The notes under the pieces are model-generated. The model saw only the letters and a program-made list of their open reading frames with translations, was not told the origin of the DNA and did not search any database. A stretch of DNA of 64,000 nucleotides from Streptomyces sp. ITFR-16. GTDB taxonomy: Bacteria; Actinomycetota; Actinomycetes; Streptomycetales; Streptomycetaceae. Within the stretch, counting starts at the first letter, position 1, and each line of letters begins with the position of its first letter. Location: positions 4,216,001 through 4,280,000 of the forward strand of contig NZ_CP134609.1 in the NCBI RefSeq assembly GCF_031844705.1, read 5' to 3'. The translations under genes and the position numbers were made by a program. This document shows positions 1,700-32,021 of this stretch, piece after piece.

Positions 1700-3244
1700 A
1701 TGGCCCGTCATGCACGTCAGCCCGGGGAATCGGCCGAGGACGGACAACAGAGCGGTGGGGCCGTCGGGACGGCGTCCCGGAACCGGCCGGAACAGGAGCG
1801 CGGCCCGTCCCACCGGTGGTGGGTGCTCGGGGTGATCGGGCTGGCCCAGCTGATGGTGGTGCTCGACGCGACGATCGTGAACATCGCGCTGCCCTCCGCC
1901 CAGCAGGACCTCGGCTTCAGCGACGGCAACCGCCAGTGGATCGTGACGGCGTACGCCCTCGCCTTCGGCTCGCTGCTGCTGCTCGGCGGCCGTATCGCCG
2001 ACCTGGTCGGCCGGCGGGTGGTGTTTCTGATCGGCCTGGTCGGCTTCGCGGTCGCCTCCGCGATCGGCGGCGCCGCCCCGAGCTTCGAGATCCTGGTGCT
2101 GGCCCGCGCGCTCCAGGGCCTGTTCGGCGCGCTGCTGGCGCCGGCCGCGCTCTCCCTGCTCACCACGACGTTCACCGTCCCGAAGGAGCGGGCGGAGGCC
2201 TTCGGGATCTACGGGGCCATCGCCGGCGCGGGCGGCGCGGTGGGGCTGCTGCTGGGCGGGGTGCTCACGGAGTACCTGGACTGGCGCTGGTGCCTGTACG
2301 TGAACCTGCTGTTCGCGTTCGCCGCCTTCGTCGGCGGCTGGCGGCTGCTCACCGCAGGCGCGCCGGCCGACCGCCCGAAGCTCGACATCCCGGGGACCGT
2401 GCTGGTCTCGGCCGGGCTCTTCTGCATCGTGTTCGGGTTCTCCCGGGCCGAGACGCATCCGTGGAGTTCGGCCGACGTCTGGGGATTCCTGGCGGCCGGC
2501 GCGGTGCTCCTGGCGGCGTTCGCCTGGTGGCAGACCCGGGCGGCGCATCCGCTGCTGCCGATGCGGGTGGTCCTGGACCGGGACCGCGCGGCGTCGTTCC
2601 TGGCGATGTTCATCTCCGGCGGCGGGATGTTCGGCGTTTTCCTGTTTCTCACGTACTACCTGCAGAAGAGCCTGTTCTACTCGCCGGTCTCCACCGGGCT
2701 GGCCTTCCTGCCGATGGTCGCCGTCATGATCGTGACGTCCGTGACGACGACCAATGCGCTGGTGCCCCGGTTCGGCGCCAAACCGATCGTGCCGCTCGGC
2801 ATGGGCATCGCGGCCGCCGCCATGGCGTGGCTGACCACGCTGGACCTGAACAGCAGCTACCCGGCCCATGTGCTGCCACCGCTGCTCTGCCTGGGCCTCG
2901 GCCTCGGCATGGTCTTCGCCACCGCGATGAACCTGGCCACCGCCGGGGTGGGCGCACGGGACGCCGGGGTGGCATCGGCGATGGTCAACACCAGCCAGCA
3001 GGTCGGCGGCTCCATCGGTACGGCGCTGCTGAACACCCTGGCCACCAGCGCCGCCACCAGCTACCTGGTGGGCCGCAGGCCGACCCCGTCCGCCGTCGCC
3101 CAGGCCCAGCTGGAGAGCTACTCCACGGCGTACTGGTGGTCGGCGGGCTTCTTCGCCCTCGGACTGCTGGTCACGCTGCTCCTGTACCGGCGGGGCGCCC
3201 CCCACCCCCATCCGGTGGAGGAAGCGGAACCGGTGCGGGCCTAG
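1700..3244 (+). CDS. MFS drug exporter, DHA2 (14-TM) family
   Basis: The 514-residue inner-membrane protein belongs to the EmrB/QacA type of drug:proton antiporter. After a roughly 40-residue polar tail come the DHA2 signatures LDATIVNIALP in helix 1 and GGRIADLVGRR in the helix 2-3 loop. Length and hydrophobic spacing fit 14 helices, and the polar tail ends HPVEEAEPVRA. The ATG at 1700 follows GAGGGAGAT with good spacing. A MarR-type regulator gene starts 51 bases downstream in the same direction, a common arrangement for an inducible efflux pump. The substrate is unknown. Confidence 0.9.
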   Translation: MARHARQPGESAEDGQQSGGAVGTASRNRPEQERGPSHRWWVLGVIGLAQLMVVLDATIVNIALPSAQQDLGFSDGNRQWIVTAYALAFGSLLLLGGRIADLVGRRVVFLIGLVGFAVASAIGGAAPSFEILVLARALQGLFGALLAPAALSLLTTTFTVPKERAEAFGIYGAIAGAGGAVGLLLGGVLTEYLDWRWCLYVNLLFAFAAFVGGWRLLTAGAPADRPKLDIPGTVLVSAGLFCIVFGFSRAETHPWSSADVWGFLAAGAVLLAAFAWWQTRAAHPLLPMRVVLDRDRAASFLAMFISGGGMFGVFLFLTYYLQKSLFYSPVSTGLAFLPMVAVMIVTSVTTTNALVPRFGAKPIVPLGMGIAAAAMAWLTTLDLNSSYPAHVLPPLLCLGLGLGMVFATAMNLATAGVGARDAGVASAMVNTSQQVGGSIGTALLNTLATSAATSYLVGRRPTPSAVAQAQLESYSTAYWWSAGFFALGLLVTLLLYRRGAPHPHPVEEAEPVRA

Positions 3245-27648: not shown

Positions 27649-28904
27649 GCCGGCTGCTCCTTGCCCGCCGCGGCGGATCGCAGTATCTGTCGGGCCCGTT
27701 CTGGGGTGACCGTGCGGTACGCGGCGGCCACCTTGACCAGCCGGGCGACCTCGCCGTCCTGGTCGGTCGCGTGCTGGGTGCCGACGGCCGCCGCGTCCCC
27801 GGCGGCCGCGCCCGCGCCGTGGGCCAGCAGGGCGGCCTTGATCCAGTACGCGTCGGCGAGCGGCCCGGTCCGCTCTTCGCCGGGGGCGTCCTCGGCGGCG
27901 GCGGTCCGCGCCGCCGGGAGCAGGGTGTCGGGCACGTAGTGGCGCAGCTTCTCCACCGCGTCGGCGATGTCCGCCGCCCAGCGGTCGATCCGCAGGTCGG
28001 CGGGGGTGTCGAAGCGGGTCAGCTCGCGCAGCAGCGGAGCCGGGCGCTCGAAGGGCTGGTCGGGGAAGGCCGTCATCAGCTCGTACCAGAGGGCGTGCAG
28101 CTTCGCCTGGGCCCGCCAGAGCGTGCTGCGGCGGCGGACGTTGGCCAGGGCGGGGATGGAGGCGCCGACCGCGAAGAAGGCGAACAGGACGACCTGGGCG
28201 GCCTCGGTGACCTCGTCGAAGCCCAGCGCGAAGGACTCGCTGGGGTGGTCGACGACGCTGGCCCAGAGGAACAGCGTCCGGCTGACCGTGTAGCCGACCC
28301 CGATGAACATCGCGAACGTCATCATCCCCAGCCCCACCCGCAGATGGCGCATCCCGGCGCTCGCGGTGGCCAGGGCCCACTGGTACGCGCAGACGGCGGA
28401 GGCCGCGCCGAGGTAGAGGTAGAACACGCTCATGTACAGCGTCGCGCCCCACTGCCCGGCGTGGTCGGCGACGAACCGGTCCGAGGGGACCGACCGGTCG
28501 ACGACGGTGAAGAACAGCACGGTCAGCAGGACCAGCGTGGCGACGGACGCCTTGGCCGCCACCTGCTGGATCAGCCGGGCGAACCGGACGTGCCGGGGGA
28601 TGTCACCGGTGTCGGCGTACTGGCCGTAGATCGCCACGATGTAGCTGAGAATGGCCAGAATCGCGACGGTCGCCGTGTAGTGCTTGATCAGTACCGAAAG
28701 GTCGGTGACCGGGCTGTCGTTGAGCCCGACGCGCACGACCCGGGTCTTGGTCCACAGGGCGAGGGCGAATCCCGCGTAACAGCCCCACAGCGCCCGGCGC
28801 CGCCGGTCCTCCTCGTCGCCCCACAGGGCGGCCGGCATGCGCCACAGGGCGACGGCTGTCATCAGGCCGGCTATCAGATAGCCGGCGAGGTCGAGGGGGG
28901 TCAC
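27645..28904 (-). CDS. MAB_1171c-family membrane protein
   Basis: The 419-residue protein has about seven transmembrane helices in its first 240 residues, from VTPLDLAGYLIAGLMTAVAL onward, then a cytosolic helical domain of about 180 residues with YELMTAFPDQPF and LRHYVPDTLLP. This matches the actinobacterial MAB_1171c family, whose role is unknown although it is sometimes labelled a transporter. Its genes typically sit beside an XRE regulator and an IrrE-like protein, as here. The GTG at 28904 gives the first helix at the N-terminus. It overlaps the PAP2-like gene by ATGA, so the two are translationally coupled. Confidence 0.82.
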   Translation of the reverse strand: MTPLDLAGYLIAGLMTAVALWRMPAALWGDEEDRRRRALWGCYAGFALALWTKTRVVRVGLNDSPVTDLSVLIKHYTATVAILAILSYIVAIYGQYADTGDIPRHVRFARLIQQVAAKASVATLVLLTVLFFTVVDRSVPSDRFVADHAGQWGATLYMSVFYLYLGAASAVCAYQWALATASAGMRHLRVGLGMMTFAMFIGVGYTVSRTLFLWASVVDHPSESFALGFDEVTEAAQVVLFAFFAVGASIPALANVRRRSTLWRAQAKLHALWYELMTAFPDQPFERPAPLLRELTRFDTPADLRIDRWAADIADAVEKLRHYVPDTLLPAARTAAAEDAPGEERTGPLADAYWIKAALLAHGAGAAAGDAAAVGTQHATDQDGEVARLVKVAAAYRTVTPERARQILRSAAAGKEQPA

Positions 28905-28986
28905 GGCAGCAGGTCCTCGGGGTGGGGGAATCGGGGTGGGGGGGGCGGGCGGAACACGGTCGGGCGGTACGGACGGCGGTCCGGTG

Positions 28987-29547
28987 CTACGTACGGCGGA
29001 ACAGGCCCCGCCGGCGGTGCGCGACCGGGCGGGAGAGCGAGTTGGCGAGCCGCCCCACCATGTCATCGCTCGTCACGTCGCGGGCCATCCGGGGGATGAG
29101 CGAGGCACCGAATTCGGCCATGCGTTCGTCGTGGGTGTCGTACTGCGCCCGCGCCTGCACGGCGTCCGGGCTCACCAGCGGGTCGGCGCCGACGACCCGG
29201 GCGATCAGGGAGGTGTCGAAGACGGGCAGCAGCCGCTGGAGCTGCTCCGCGTCCAGCGAGGTCCCGTGGTCGAACCATTCGTGGCACAGCTCGTGCAGGA
29301 TGACGTGCTGGGTCTGGTACGCGGTGGGGCGGCGCCGGTAGAGCACGAAGCTGGTGTCCCCGGCCTTCAGCCGCAGCCCGCACGCGGTGTTGACGCGGGC
29401 GATCCGGTCGGGCATCTCGTGCAGCACGATGGTCCGGCCCCGCGCCGCCTCCATGTTCGCCACCAGACCGGCGACCGAGAACGGGGCGGGCAGCGGAAGC
29501 CCGGCGAGCCCGTCCTCGCACTCCCTGCGCAGCGCACGCATCGACAT
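28987..29547 (-). CDS. IrrE/ImmA-like zinc metalloprotease
   Basis: The 186-residue protein contains the zinc motif HVILHELCHEWF (H85, E86, H89), the HExxH signature of the ImmA/IrrE family, preceded by a beta-strand core (TSFVLYRRR). Family members cleave XRE-type repressors in response to a signal. An XRE-type gene starts four bases upstream of it in the same operon, exactly the expected partner. The C-terminus is basic (RPVAHRRRGLFRRT). Downstream are the MAB_1171c and PAP2-like genes. Confidence 0.85.
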   Translation of the reverse strand: MSMRALRRECEDGLAGLPLPAPFSVAGLVANMEAARGRTIVLHEMPDRIARVNTACGLRLKAGDTSFVLYRRRPTAYQTQHVILHELCHEWFDHGTSLDAEQLQRLLPVFDTSLIARVVGADPLVSPDAVQARAQYDTHDERMAEFGASLIPRMARDVTSDDMVGRLANSLSRPVAHRRRGLFRRT

Positions 29548-29550
29548 CCG

Positions 29551-30000
29551 CTAACCCCGCTGCTCGCCCTCGGCCGGCGGCTGCCGGTCCTGCGCGTCCC
29601 GGAGCAGGGCCAGCGCGAACTGCAGCAGCTCGGGCGGCAGTCCGTCCTCCGCGAGCCCCCGTCCGGCCATTCCGCTGATCTCACCGGTCCGCCGCTTGGC
29701 CAGGAACTGCAGCCCCGCCACGACGTCGTCGACGACCTCGGACTCCTCCTTGAAGAAGCGCCAGTCCACGCCGAAGCCGAGTCCGAGCGCCTTCAGGATC
29801 TCCTCGGACGGCTGGGTGACCTTGCCGGCCAGGATGTTGGAGAAGTAGCTGTGGGAGAGGGAGCCGCCGCGCTCCTTGACCAGCTCCGCGAAGAACCGTC
29901 CCGAGATCCTGCGGCCGGGGAAGGTCTTCTCGACCATGTACTCGACCTTCTGCCGCAACGTCCGCAGCTCCGGCGCGCGCTCATCGCCGTTGTCGTCCAT
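29551..30000 (-). CDS. XRE-type DNA-binding regulator (EspR-like)
   Basis: The 149-residue protein has an N-terminal helix-turn-helix (about 12-85) with LRQKVEYMVEKTFPGRRIS, then SLSHSYFSNILAGKVTQPSEEIL as recognition region and LGFGVDWRFFKEE. This extended layout resembles mycobacterial EspR and other actinobacterial XRE proteins. The C-terminal 50 residues are a helical dimerisation-like tail. It is the first gene of the cassette with the IrrE-like protease and two membrane proteins and is the likely target of that protease. ATG 30000 has only a weak ribosome-binding site. Confidence 0.82.
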   Translation of the reverse strand: MDDNGDERAPELRTLRQKVEYMVEKTFPGRRISGRFFAELVKERGGSLSHSYFSNILAGKVTQPSEEILKALGLGFGVDWRFFKEESEVVDDVVAGLQFLAKRRTGEISGMAGRGLAEDGLPPELLQFALALLRDAQDRQPPAEGEQRG

Positions 30001-30209
30001 CCGGCCCCCCCGTCCACGTCCACCGCCCGGGCCCCTGTCCGGTGCCGTACGGTGCTCGACTCGGTCAACGGGCTCGTACTGTAACCAACGCGGCGGCGCC
30101 GGCCGGGCGCGGGAGCCGCGGCGGAACACCGTACCGGGACGAAGCGGAACATCCGTGTCCGGGTGCCCGGAGCGGGCTTGCGCAAACACTCTACGTCACT
30201 GTTAACTCG

Positions 30210-30337
30210 AAAAAACACGGGCAGGGGACCACGAGGGGAGTCCCTTGCCCGTGAGGTCTTTCCCGGGCGCGGACGCGTCCTTCCGGGTGCGCACAGGGGT
30301 GTAGCCCTTCACGACGGGGGATGCGTGAAGGGCTACC
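30210..30337 (-). ncRNA. Small RNA, 6C-type (two C-loop hairpins)
   Basis: On the minus strand a transcript starting near 30337 would fold into a perfect 13-bp hairpin (GTAGCCCTTCACG with its complement, 30301-30336) with the loop CATCCCCCGT. After about 50 bases a second hairpin follows (CACGGGC.../...GCCCGTG, 30216-30253) whose inner part includes CTCCCC, and then TTTTTT (30215-30210), a textbook intrinsic terminator. Two hairpins with C-rich loops, the second acting as terminator, are the hallmark of the actinobacterial 6C RNA family. A matching promoter lies just upstream. Length is about 128 bases. No reading frame with a start site was seen. The loops have five and four consecutive C, not six. 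Confidence 0.72.
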
Positions 30338-30342
30338 CGTGC

Positions 30343-30372
30343 ATTATGGCCCCCTGGCCAGGCCGCCATCAA
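30343..30372 (-). promoter_or_regulatory. Promoter of the 6C-type small RNA
   Basis: Read on the minus strand, TTGATG (30372-30367) is followed after 18 bases by CATAAT (30348-30343), a good match to the vegetative consensus and unusually strong for this genome. The predicted transcript start, about seven bases on, falls at the first base of the 13-bp hairpin. Confidence 0.65.
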
Positions 30373-30407
30373 CTGACCGGCGGGTCAGTGTGCTTGCCCT
30401 TCCGGGC

Positions 30408-30436
30408 CCCCGGCTGCCGGGACCCGGCAGCCGGGG
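30408..30436. repeat. Long GC-rich palindrome CCGGCTGCCGG-GAC-CCGGCAGCCGG
   Basis: Its core CTGCCGG-GAC-CCGGCAG (30414-30430) has the same 7-3-7 design as the palindromes at 359, 1568 and 21231, but the arms extend to about 12 bp. It lies between the small RNA promoter and the MerR-like gene. It could be an operator or simply a stable hairpin; there is no T-run. Confidence 0.4.
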
Positions 30437-30534
30437 GGAACCGCACCGAGGGGCTGCCGGGGCGGCGGACCGGCCGGAATCAGATTATTTCCCCCCTCCG
30501 GCCAGGGAAATCTGTCGCGGCTATGCTAGAGACG

Positions 30535-30933
30535 ATGGCTCGCACAATGAGAGATTCTCGTTCGGTCAACGAAGTCAGCGACACGCGGCAGGTGCACATG
30601 CCCCCCGATACCCCTCCGCAGGCCACTGACCGTCTCGACGACGACGACTACCCCGCCTACACCATGGGCCGCGCCGCGGAGATGATCGGCGCCACGCCCG
30701 GATTCCTCCGTGCGATCGGCGAGGCCCGCCTGATCACACCGCTGCGCTCGGAGGGCGGCCACCGCCGCTACTCCCGCTACCAGCTGCGCATCGCCGCCCG
30801 CGCCCGAGAACTGGTCGACGGCGGCACCCCGATCGAGGCCGCCTGCCGGATCGTGATCCTGGAGGACCAGCTCGAAGAGGCGCTCCGGCTGAACGAGGAA
30901 CTGCGCCGCCCCACCCCCGGCCGCGACGCCTAG
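30535..30933 (+). CDS. MerR-like helix-turn-helix regulator
   Basis: The 132-residue protein has the MerR N-terminal winged helix (about 40-110): YTMGRAAEMIGATPGFLRAI, ITPLRSEGGHRRYSRYQL, then ARELVDGGTPIEAACRIV and a short helix LEDQLEEALRLNEELRR. There is no ligand domain. The ATG at 30535 lies seven bases behind TATGCT (30522-30527), which looks like a -10 box and would give a leaderless message; an internal ATG at 30598 is the alternative. Its stop codon overlaps the stop of the convergent lacI-type gene within CTAG. Confidence 0.8.
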   Translation: MARTMRDSRSVNEVSDTRQVHMPPDTPPQATDRLDDDDYPAYTMGRAAEMIGATPGFLRAIGEARLITPLRSEGGHRRYSRYQLRIAARARELVDGGTPIEAACRIVILEDQLEEALRLNEELRRPTPGRDA

Positions 30934-32021
30934 GGTCCGTCGCTCGCCCGCCCCGTGCTGCCCCGTTCGATCAGCCGGGGCAGCGGTACCTGGACCGTGT
31001 GCGCCGTGCCGCCGTCGAGCAGCGCGGTCAGCTCCCGGGCGGCGAGCCGGCCGAAGGCGACCGTGTCCCGGGACAGCGCGGTGAGCCACGGGGCGGTCAG
31101 CCGGCACAGCGCGGAGTCCTCCCACGACACCACCGACACGTCTTCCGGGACCCGCAGTCCGAGCCCGGCCGTGACCGCCACCCCGGCCGCCGCCATCACG
31201 TCGTTGTCGTAGACGAGCGCGGTCGGCGGATCCTTCTGCTCCAGCACCCGGCGGGTCACCGCCGCGCCCTCGGTGTCGGAGTAGTCCGTGGTCACCGAGC
31301 GGGCCCCGGTCAGCCCGTGCCGGTCGGCCTCGATGCGCAGGGACCGGATGCGCCGGTCGGTGTGCGCGAGCGAGGGCAGCCCGGCGATGTGCACGATGCG
31401 GCGGTGGCCCAGCTCGTGTAGCCGTCCGACGACCGCGGCCATGGCGCCCGCGTCGTCCGCGCGGACCTGGGAGAGGCCCGGGTGGGGGGCCGTGTCGCTG
31501 CCGGGGAGGGCGCCGATGACGACGCCGGGCAGGCCCAGTTCGTCCAGCAGGGCGACGCGCGGGTCGTCGGTGCGGGGGTCGACGACGAGCACCCCGTCCA
31601 CCCGCCGCTCGGCCCACCAGCGCCGGTAGACCGCGCACTCCGCCGCCACGTCCTCCACCACCTGGAAGAGCAGCCCGAGCCGGCGCTCCGCCAGCACCTC
31701 CTGGATGCCGGAGATCAGCTGGAGGAAGAACGAGTCCACGCCCAGATTCGCCGCCGGGCGGGCGACGACGAGCCCCACCGTGGCCGCCCCCTCGCCCGAC
31801 AGCGCGCGGGCCGCGGTGCTCGGATGCCAGCCCAGCTGTTCGGCGACGCGCCGGACGCGGTCACGGGTGATCTCCGAGACGCCCGGGCGGTTGTTGAGCG
31901 CGAAGGAGACGGCGCTCTCGGACACCCCGGCCCGCTGGGCGATGTCCTTCATGGTCGGCCGTCGCGCCGGCGTGCGCCGAGCCGTCGAAGTCTCCCCGGC
32001 CGGCGGCCTCTTCGGTGTCAC
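30930..32021 (-). CDS. LacI-family regulator of the N-glycan locus
   Basis: The 363-residue protein has a LacI helix-turn-helix (about 23-75) with MKDIAQRAGVSESAVSFALN and the hinge HPSTAARALSGEGAATVG, followed by a periplasmic-binding-protein-like sugar domain. The GTG at 32021 has GAGG eight bases before it. It is divergent from the sugar ABC transporter and glycosidase operon starting at 32361; a perfect inverted repeat in the gap is the probable operator. Its effector is likely a mannose-containing oligosaccharide, by inference from the operon. Confidence 0.9.
   Translation of the reverse strand: MTPKRPPAGETSTARRTPARRPTMKDIAQRAGVSESAVSFALNNRPGVSEITRDRVRRVAEQLGWHPSTAARALSGEGAATVGLVVARPAANLGVDSFFLQLISGIQEVLAERRLGLLFQVVEDVAAECAVYRRWWAERRVDGVLVVDPRTDDPRVALLDELGLPGVVIGALPGSDTAPHPGLSQVRADDAGAMAAVVGRLHELGHRRIVHIAGLPSLAHTDRRIRSLRIEADRHGLTGARSVTTDYSDTEGAAVTRRVLEQKDPPTALVYDNDVMAAAGVAVTAGLGLRVPEDVSVVSWEDSALCRLTAPWLTALSRDTVAFGRLAARELTALLDGGTAHTVQVPLPRLIERGSTGRASDGP

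Follow-up and report, generated by a model that had tools for sequence, protein, structure and literature searches.

A C-loop hairpin at a small-RNA-like locus of Streptomyces sp. ITFR-16 belongs to an apparently undescribed hairpin family of actinobacteria

In front of a small gene cassette of Streptomyces sp. ITFR-16, the minus strand carries a promoter and two hairpins with C-containing loops, and the initial annotation of this locus had read the arrangement as a 6C-type small RNA. This raises the question of which part of the arrangement is conserved, to which RNA family it belongs and what it may do. The window, to which all coordinates refer, is the whole stretch of 64,000 nt that was analysed (NZ_CP134609.1 of assembly GCF_031844705.1, positions 4,216,001-4,280,000), and the element lies on its minus strand at 30388-30210. 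The annotated coordinates and features stand, the length of one loop excepted. The observation was thus confirmed, and its interpretation was partly supported.

The element ahead of the cassette

The upstream edge of the promoter is marked by the palindrome CTGACCCGCCGGTCAG (CTGACC-N4-GGTCAG, 30388-30373), a possible repressor operator. The pattern CTGACCNNCYGGTCAG has one site genome-wide, which is this palindrome, and its reversed control pattern likewise has one; under a strict pattern, a similar palindrome is found 24-25 nt ahead of the -10 hexamer in 33 of 48 examined loci of the window type (defined below). Next follows the sigma-70-type promoter TTGATG-18-CATAAT (30372-30343, with the -35 hexamer at 30372-30367 and the -10 hexamer at 30348-30343), which had been annotated at this place as near-consensus and which was the sole site in a sigma-70 consensus scan of 28000-32000 (shuffles, mean 0.1). 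Hairpin H1 (30336-30301), GTAGCCCTTCACG-[CATCCCCCGT]-CGTGAAGGGCTAC, would form the 5' end of the predicted RNA. Its perfect stem of 13 bp at the predicted transcript start is as annotated, whereas the supposed CCCCC loop is in fact a loop of ten bases, CATCCCCCGT (30323-30314), which is five bases more and includes the five consecutive C. The loop and its closing pair make up the motif G-CATCCCCCGT-C (30324-30313), a 12-mer pattern that characterizes the family described below.

A linker of 47 nt (30300-30254) with a weak predicted hairpin, the length of which is not conserved, leads to H2 (30253-30210), a terminator-like hairpin with the C-containing loop CUCCCCUCGUGG and a U6 tail. The hairpin itself (30253-30216) has 8 + 6 pairs in the fold and CCCC in its loop, and T6 follows at 30215-30210, which agrees with the second hairpin with TTTTTT of the annotation. 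H2 was among 2 sites of a terminator scan of 28000-32000, for which shuffles gave a mean of 0.8, so that this listing is no evidence by itself. Promoter, 5' hairpin and C-loop terminator-like hairpin form a small-RNA-like unit of the size that had been predicted (about 130 nt), with a putative transcript from approximately 30337 to 30210, i.e., about 128 nt. This transcript folds at -70.5 kcal/mol compared to -49.9 kcal/mol (sd 4.2) for 200 shuffles (z -4.9; 0/200 as low). That the element is beyond chance is concluded from its conservation in relatives, rather than from the fold alone. In a collection with one genome per species, 58 stretches contain the exact 36-mer of H1; their titles all name Streptomyces apart from one, "[Kitasatospora] papulosa".

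Directly after the T run of H2 lies a block of 34 nt, TCGAGTTAACAGTGACGTAGAGTGTTTGCGCAAG (30209-30176, minus strand), which is near-identical in four aligned genomes, recurs in further relatives and contains TTAAC and TTGCGCAA motifs; it is probably the promoter/operator of the following gene. The annotation had described a terminator that insulates the XRE promoter, and what stands of this is a terminator-like hairpin upstream of a strongly conserved block ahead of the XRE gene. The cassette is encoded on the minus strand and consists of an ORF labelled "XRE" (30000-29551), an unconfirmed label of the initial annotation, and an ORF labelled "IrrE" (29547-28987) with the HEXXH-type motif HELCH read from the sequence, presumably a member of the IrrE family; neither protein matched a Pfam or NCBIfam family at E<=0.001. 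Further minus-strand genes encode a MAB_1171c-family membrane protein (29066-27645, start uncertain; NF042915, 131.4 bits, cut-off 100) and a PAP2-like protein (27648-27037; PF01569, 21.2 bits, under the cut-off of 27.2). On the plus strand, a MerR-type regulator gene is divergently oriented (30535-30933; PF13411, 33.0 bits, cut-off 21.6).

The conserved unit and its family

A DNA search gave matches in 7 of 61 genomes including the own one; two of these matches are incomplete, as the one in G053 spans 29 nt and the one in G010 covers H2 alone. With model R1, for which five copies were used, 138 of 392 genomes of Streptomyces had a match at E<=0.01, and 49 genomes had one above 60 bits. These 49 loci, the window and 48 others, are referred to as window-type loci. 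The H1 36-mer is identical in 38 of them, seven distinct sequences occur overall, and the distance from the -10 hexamer to H1 is kept among relatives. The genes next to H1 differ: an XRE gene is present at 35 of the 49 loci, a PAP2-like gene follows directly at 7, where the cassette genes 1-3 were not found, and neither gene lies within about 6 kb at the remaining 7. H2 was found in 37 of the 392 genomes, 35 times with H1 and twice without (G010, G411). The 35 H2 loci among the 49 are the same as the XRE loci, and the other 14 keep the identical H1 36-mer. Because 14 of 49 loci retain an identical H1 without H2, the unit that is conserved is promoter plus H1, and not the two-hairpin layout on which the 6C reading had been built. 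In G010, the locus L020 has the XRE cassette and H2 without a strong H1 match, and its upstream hairpin lacks a C run; G411 likewise has H2 without a strong H1 match.

Across the seven distinct H1 sequences, all 91 of 91 cells are paired and double changes occur at two pairs (8 and 11), a pair number reached by 34 of 500 shuffles and a covariation score reached by 1 of 500. For H2, 16 distinct sequences gave double changes at 4 of 14 pairs (reached by 9 of 500 shuffles), the pair types are not more numerous than in shuffles, and 9 of the 16 distinct rows lack pair 14-27; this alignment omits 4 of 36 H2 rows (L020, L079, L086, L091), which are shifted by small insertions. From the start of H1 to the T run, the distance is 90-209 nt across the 35 loci.

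H1 has relatives beyond its orthologues and is, on the sequence evidence, part of an apparently undescribed actinobacterial hairpin family. The features by which we define this family are the loop G[CAUCCCCCGU]C, carried by a stem of about 7 bp or more, and a -10 hexamer whose end lies approximately 13-23 nt ahead of the motif's G. The window H1 has the exact loop on its 13-bp perfect stem, and CATAAT ends 18 nt ahead of GCATC. It scores 56.8 bits (E 4.7e-9) against model R3, among whose 32 building rows it is itself included. In the tail of weaker R1 matches, 36 loci were examined. The loop motif is exact in 35 of them, where the stems are mostly unrelated, and L123 has CACCCCCCGT instead. 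The 12-mer GCATCCCCCGTC has 5 sites in the own genome (reversed-pattern control, 0): three are hairpins behind a -10-like hexamer, namely the window copy, L131 (C1:3979587) and L133 (C1:6367023), and two form no hairpin. In 37 Streptomyces genomes, which are less selected as evidence, it gave 153 matches compared to 25 for the reversed control (summed). At least 7 of 8 inner pairs are present in 94 of 112 distinct contexts, which is not a rate since the set is enriched by R1; the rest comprises three L133-type contexts with 6 pairs and fifteen with 4 or fewer. The hairpins tend to come with a promoter: among the loci of the pattern scan, a [TC]ANNNT hexamer lies 13-23 nt upstream in 12 of 13 hairpin sites versus 3 of 17 non-hairpin sites, counts from which sites with exactly 7/9 pairs, sites close to the end of a contig and repeated contexts were left out.

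Covariation was assessed in a gapless alignment of 32 diverse copies, chosen for an exact 12-mer and good inner pairing. In this alignment 96.4% of the cells pair (shuffles 64.6%), 125 cells are changed on both sides (shuffles 35.9), double changes occur at 12 of 13 pairs, and on none of the five measures does any of 500 shuffles come as high; when the partner is slid by 1-3 columns, the pairing falls to 29-58%. Row selection inflates the values for columns 5-12, on which the filter relied, and for column 13, a part of the motif. Columns 1-4, which are outside the filter, are paired in 26, 27, 31, and 31 of the 32 rows, most of which come from R1, a model that includes the pairs of columns 1-4, and 9 of which come from the pattern scan. 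Since the rows were picked for the exact 12-mer, the loop seems more invariant in the alignment than it is in fact. Window-type loci show the variants TATCCCCCGT and CGTCCCCCGT, further model matches show CACCCCCCGT, CTCCCCCGT, CAACCCCCGT and loops that contain TGTCCCCCCGT, and the steadiest stretch is CCCCCGTC (CCCCCGU plus the closing C). In another actinobacterial family of the same phylum, hairpins with TGTCCCCCCGT loops, a kindred type of loop beyond Streptomyces, stand behind TATCGT-type sites (L182, L183).

With regard to the promoter, the 35 copies with a CANACT hexamer, both viral and chromosomal, show an extended form with TGC before CANACT, each base at 94% or more. TGTCR-N11-TANNNT, which we take to be a DNA-damage promoter motif, was rejected as a family rule, as only 4 of these 35 copies have it, at N9-12. 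Scans of eleven copies (the window and ten loci) against Rfam 15 gave no match at gathering cut-offs, and L131 yielded chance-level rows only.

Core copies and copies in phage and predicted viral DNA

Model R3 matched 149 of 150 Streptomyces genomes at E<=1e-4, with one to five matches each, and the sole miss was a genome of 82% completeness. In a sample of the phylum, 18 of 396 genomes matched, 12 of them in Streptomyces. As just 16 candidates were scored per genome, 18 of 396 is a lower bound and does not imply absence outside Streptomyces. All 12 Streptomyces matches of the sample carry a copy of the L131 type with the same upstream sequence CTCTTGTTACCGTTC. Among the pattern-scan loci of other genera (L136-L152), 9 of 17 are hairpins, one of which (L142) is short-stemmed. 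L131 is located between a gene for a SEC-C-type protein (labelled by eye) and a convergent gene on the opposite strand, in what we tentatively take to be the SCO3972 region. This placement follows from the neighbours and from SCO3972 being listed as a Prim-Pol protein (PMC6767563). L131, after which the convergent gene follows, and L139 of another genus, which ends in T5, look like stand-alone units.

Copies were also found in predicted viral DNA. Exact 14-mers from the family matched at least 120 stretches and 66 stretches in IMG/VR, the contigs of which are predictions and possibly include other mobile DNA. Among the matches listed, 48 of 189 sites have at least 7 of 9 pairs, with a main mode at 4 and a second mode at 9/9. 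A -10-like hexamer precedes 27 of 39 hairpin sites versus 21 of 120 non-hairpin sites among the viral matches listed, and in a control window further upstream the numbers are 3 of 39 and 34 of 120; the omissions named above for the pattern-scan counts apply here too. From the difference between 27 of 39 and 21 of 120 it follows that DNA of such contigs bears the unit, with stems of its own and an unchanged loop. Three viral "hairpin" sites (L354, L442, L453) resemble repeated coding sequence. In several of 20 inspected viral contigs, integrase-like or other mobile-element-like genes lie nearby (labelled by eye). In two (L346, L407), the hairpin lies near a gene that by eye resembles Ku, and the small genes beside it recur next to hairpins of other contigs. 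One copy is present in the isolated Streptomyces phage Gilgamesh, near position 3125 on the minus strand between genes 3 and 4; the phage-type query matched two records of this one phage over 56% of its length. Another phage-type copy had no match among annotated phages, and neither the core copy nor the window element had a match in a plasmid collection.

On a bolder and rather improbable reading, promoter and C5-loop hairpin would be a portable module that is near-universal in Streptomyces, with a vertically inherited core copy and copies in phages and integrative elements, and with the loop as a "word" for a single cellular partner. This partner would be a conserved class of mRNA sites, an RNA-binding protein or RNA polymerase. 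If this is true, mobile elements would tap or jam a host-wide post-transcriptional circuit with their own copy. Given the copies in phage and mobile DNA, one may ask if phages employ this signal as well.

Possible mode of action and relation to known RNAs

As to function, we lean towards the C-loop hairpins being an undescribed family of small RNAs that act in trans, by pairing of the loop with G-rich sites in mRNAs. The housekeeping-type promoter would start the RNA, and the 5' hairpin would at once display 5'-CAUCCCCCGU-3'. At the window copy, transcription would run on to the H2 terminator and yield the RNA of about 128 nt, two loops of which contain C. The very stable stem would keep the loop open, and CCCCCGU would pair with ACGGGGG sites in mRNAs, chiefly near ribosome-binding sites, which is also the reported mode of the C loops in 6C. 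A small RNA acting via its loop is favoured because the hairpin is promoter-proximal, the loop is nearly fixed on a free stem, some copies look stand-alone and phages carry the unit. With a fixed loop on a free stem, loop swaps offer a direct test of how the RNA acts. Post-transcriptional control is little understood in Streptomyces, and few small RNAs of the genus would be as widely conserved as such a hairpin RNA.

Target searches over the genome and at the XRE loci gave no firm target. The full loop complement ACGGGGGATG has 22 sites in the genome, three of which are the elements themselves, compared to 4 for the reversed control, and these sites show no clear link to start codons. ACGGGGGAG-N3-9-ATG has 15 sites versus 2 for the reversed control, whereby G-rich words ahead of ATG are expected in any such genome. 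The ribosome-binding site of the XRE gene was rejected as a conserved target of H1: its 8-nt complement GACGGGGG is present in the window only, i.e., at 1 of 36 XRE loci, in a comparison in which some starts were aligned with a shift.

For the window copy, the main rival is a cis-acting leader or attenuator, since this copy and its orthologues are placed before the PAP2-like gene or before H2 and the cassette. H1 would then be a 5' leader hairpin and H2 a terminator at which read-through sets the expression of the XRE-PAP2 genes. The exact coincidence of the XRE loci with the H2 loci (35 of 49), the position of H1 directly ahead of the PAP2-like gene in 7 of 49, the joint occurrence of H2 with H1 in 35 of 37 genomes and the presence of XRE and H2 without a strong H1 in L020 would all fit. 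On the other hand, H1 is still identical at the 7 of 49 loci without XRE or PAP2 within about 6 kb, and paralogous H1 hairpins precede unrelated genes or a convergent gene, which makes a leader function rather unlikely.

It is also unlikely, although conceivable given that the loop hardly varies while the stems vary freely and that the hairpin lies at the putative start of the transcript, that the loop is a site for an RNA-binding protein or for RNA polymerase, with the RNA acting as a sponge or as a modifier of elongation in cis. The put RNAs of phage HK022 act on RNA polymerase itself, and unrelated downstream genes as well as the copies in predicted viral contigs would suit such a hairpin. 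However, some copies seem to be complete RNAs that end at the hairpin (T5 in L139), which is ill-suited to an antiterminator, and the T fraction after the stem is 0.42 versus 0.13 in the control for the pattern-scan relatives. In the viral contigs listed, it is barely above the control (0.23 versus 0.20), which speaks against the trans-acting reading as well. Very improbable is an element at the DNA level, with a regulator or recombinase binding the inverted repeat as duplex or as extruded DNA. Compensatory changes preserve a DNA palindrome too, and some copies lie near mobile-element-like genes (labels by eye), but the near-fixed spacing to the -10 hexamer on the strand of the C-rich loop and the conserved 10-nt spacer fit an RNA hairpin better.

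That the window element is a strict, divergent orthologue of 6C is barely credible: two C-loop hairpins, the 5' position and a similar size would agree with it, as would L133, which bears the H1 loop and aligns to both 6C hairpins, but the covariance-model test gave no match, better candidates exist in the own genome, the loops have C5 and C4, and H1 persists without H2. The 6C membership proposed in the initial annotation did not hold in the searches, as RF01066 had 0 matches in the whole window at its gathering cut-off of 47 bits, and a scan of 30100-30450 with its covariance model returned no 6C row at E<=10. The window element was also absent from the 7 weak matches of a genome-wide 6C search, the best of which reached 43.9 and 38.8 bits, below the cut-off of 47, and both lie elsewhere; this search weighs little because 150 of 6347 candidates were scored and L133 was missed. 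6C has been defined by a pair of hairpins whose loops each contain at least six C (PMC8388888); the C runs of the window element are fewer than six. A joint conservation of both hairpins was likewise rejected, with both in 35, a strong H1 alone in 14 and H2 alone in 2 of 392 genomes.

Other known RNAs gave no better identity. Scr3920 (RF02828; 28.6 bits, E 0.0011, gathering 88), on the plus strand opposite to the element, and BjrC80 (RF02354; 27.6 bits, E 0.0016 over the element, gathering 80) are far under their cut-offs and were read as generic hairpin agreement. A description of the family was not found in the titles and abstract beginnings of literature on Streptomyces small RNAs, 6C, scr3972-3974, transcript-end maps and phage small RNAs, and the 11-mer loop string, in three spellings, had no relevant actinobacterial context by title. 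Nor was one found in the consulted passages of PMC2422843, PMC4681348, PMC8388888, PMC9569102, PMC6767563, PMC10771440, PMC8914203, PMC11678152, and PMC8079986.

Single members have perhaps already been seen as transcripts, the comparison being by description only. In Moody 2013 (PMC3765725), scr5583/sar2652/svr5279 and scr1434/sar6912/svr1031 are reported as expressed and conserved in three Streptomyces; like H1, they have C-rich loops and stable stems by their description, and these small RNAs could be among the members of the C-loop family. As described there, svr5535 of S. venezuelae resembles a lone H1 unit, with 41 nt and one predicted stem-loop, and unlike the C-loop family it is described as species-specific (PMC3765725).

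The closest likeness is to 6C RNA itself (RF01066; B11 of mycobacteria), which, like the C-loop family, is actinobacterial and short, with stable hairpins and C-run loops. By the title of a work of Mai from 2019, 6C reportedly acts through C-rich loops. In L133 (C1:6367023, minus strand), the H1 loop sits on a short hairpin and the next hairpin has a C6 loop; both hairpins were aligned to 6C at 29.6 bits (E 0.031, cut-off 47). The same arrangement, with CAUCCCCCGU as first loop, is seen in L127, L158, and L165; L133 precedes a small conserved gene beside moaA-like and tyrosyl-tRNA-synthetase-like genes (by eye). L133 is thus an intermediate, with the H1 loop on the first hairpin of a pair that resembles 6C. 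For this reason, a relation in kind between the C-loop family and 6C is plausible, and perhaps the two are related by descent. In contrast to 6C, the window element lacks a covariance-model match and has C5 and C4 loops on hairpins 47 nt apart, and the unit of the C-loop family is one hairpin, which gives one to five model matches per Streptomyces genome, on unrelated stems, and also occurs in predicted viral contigs.
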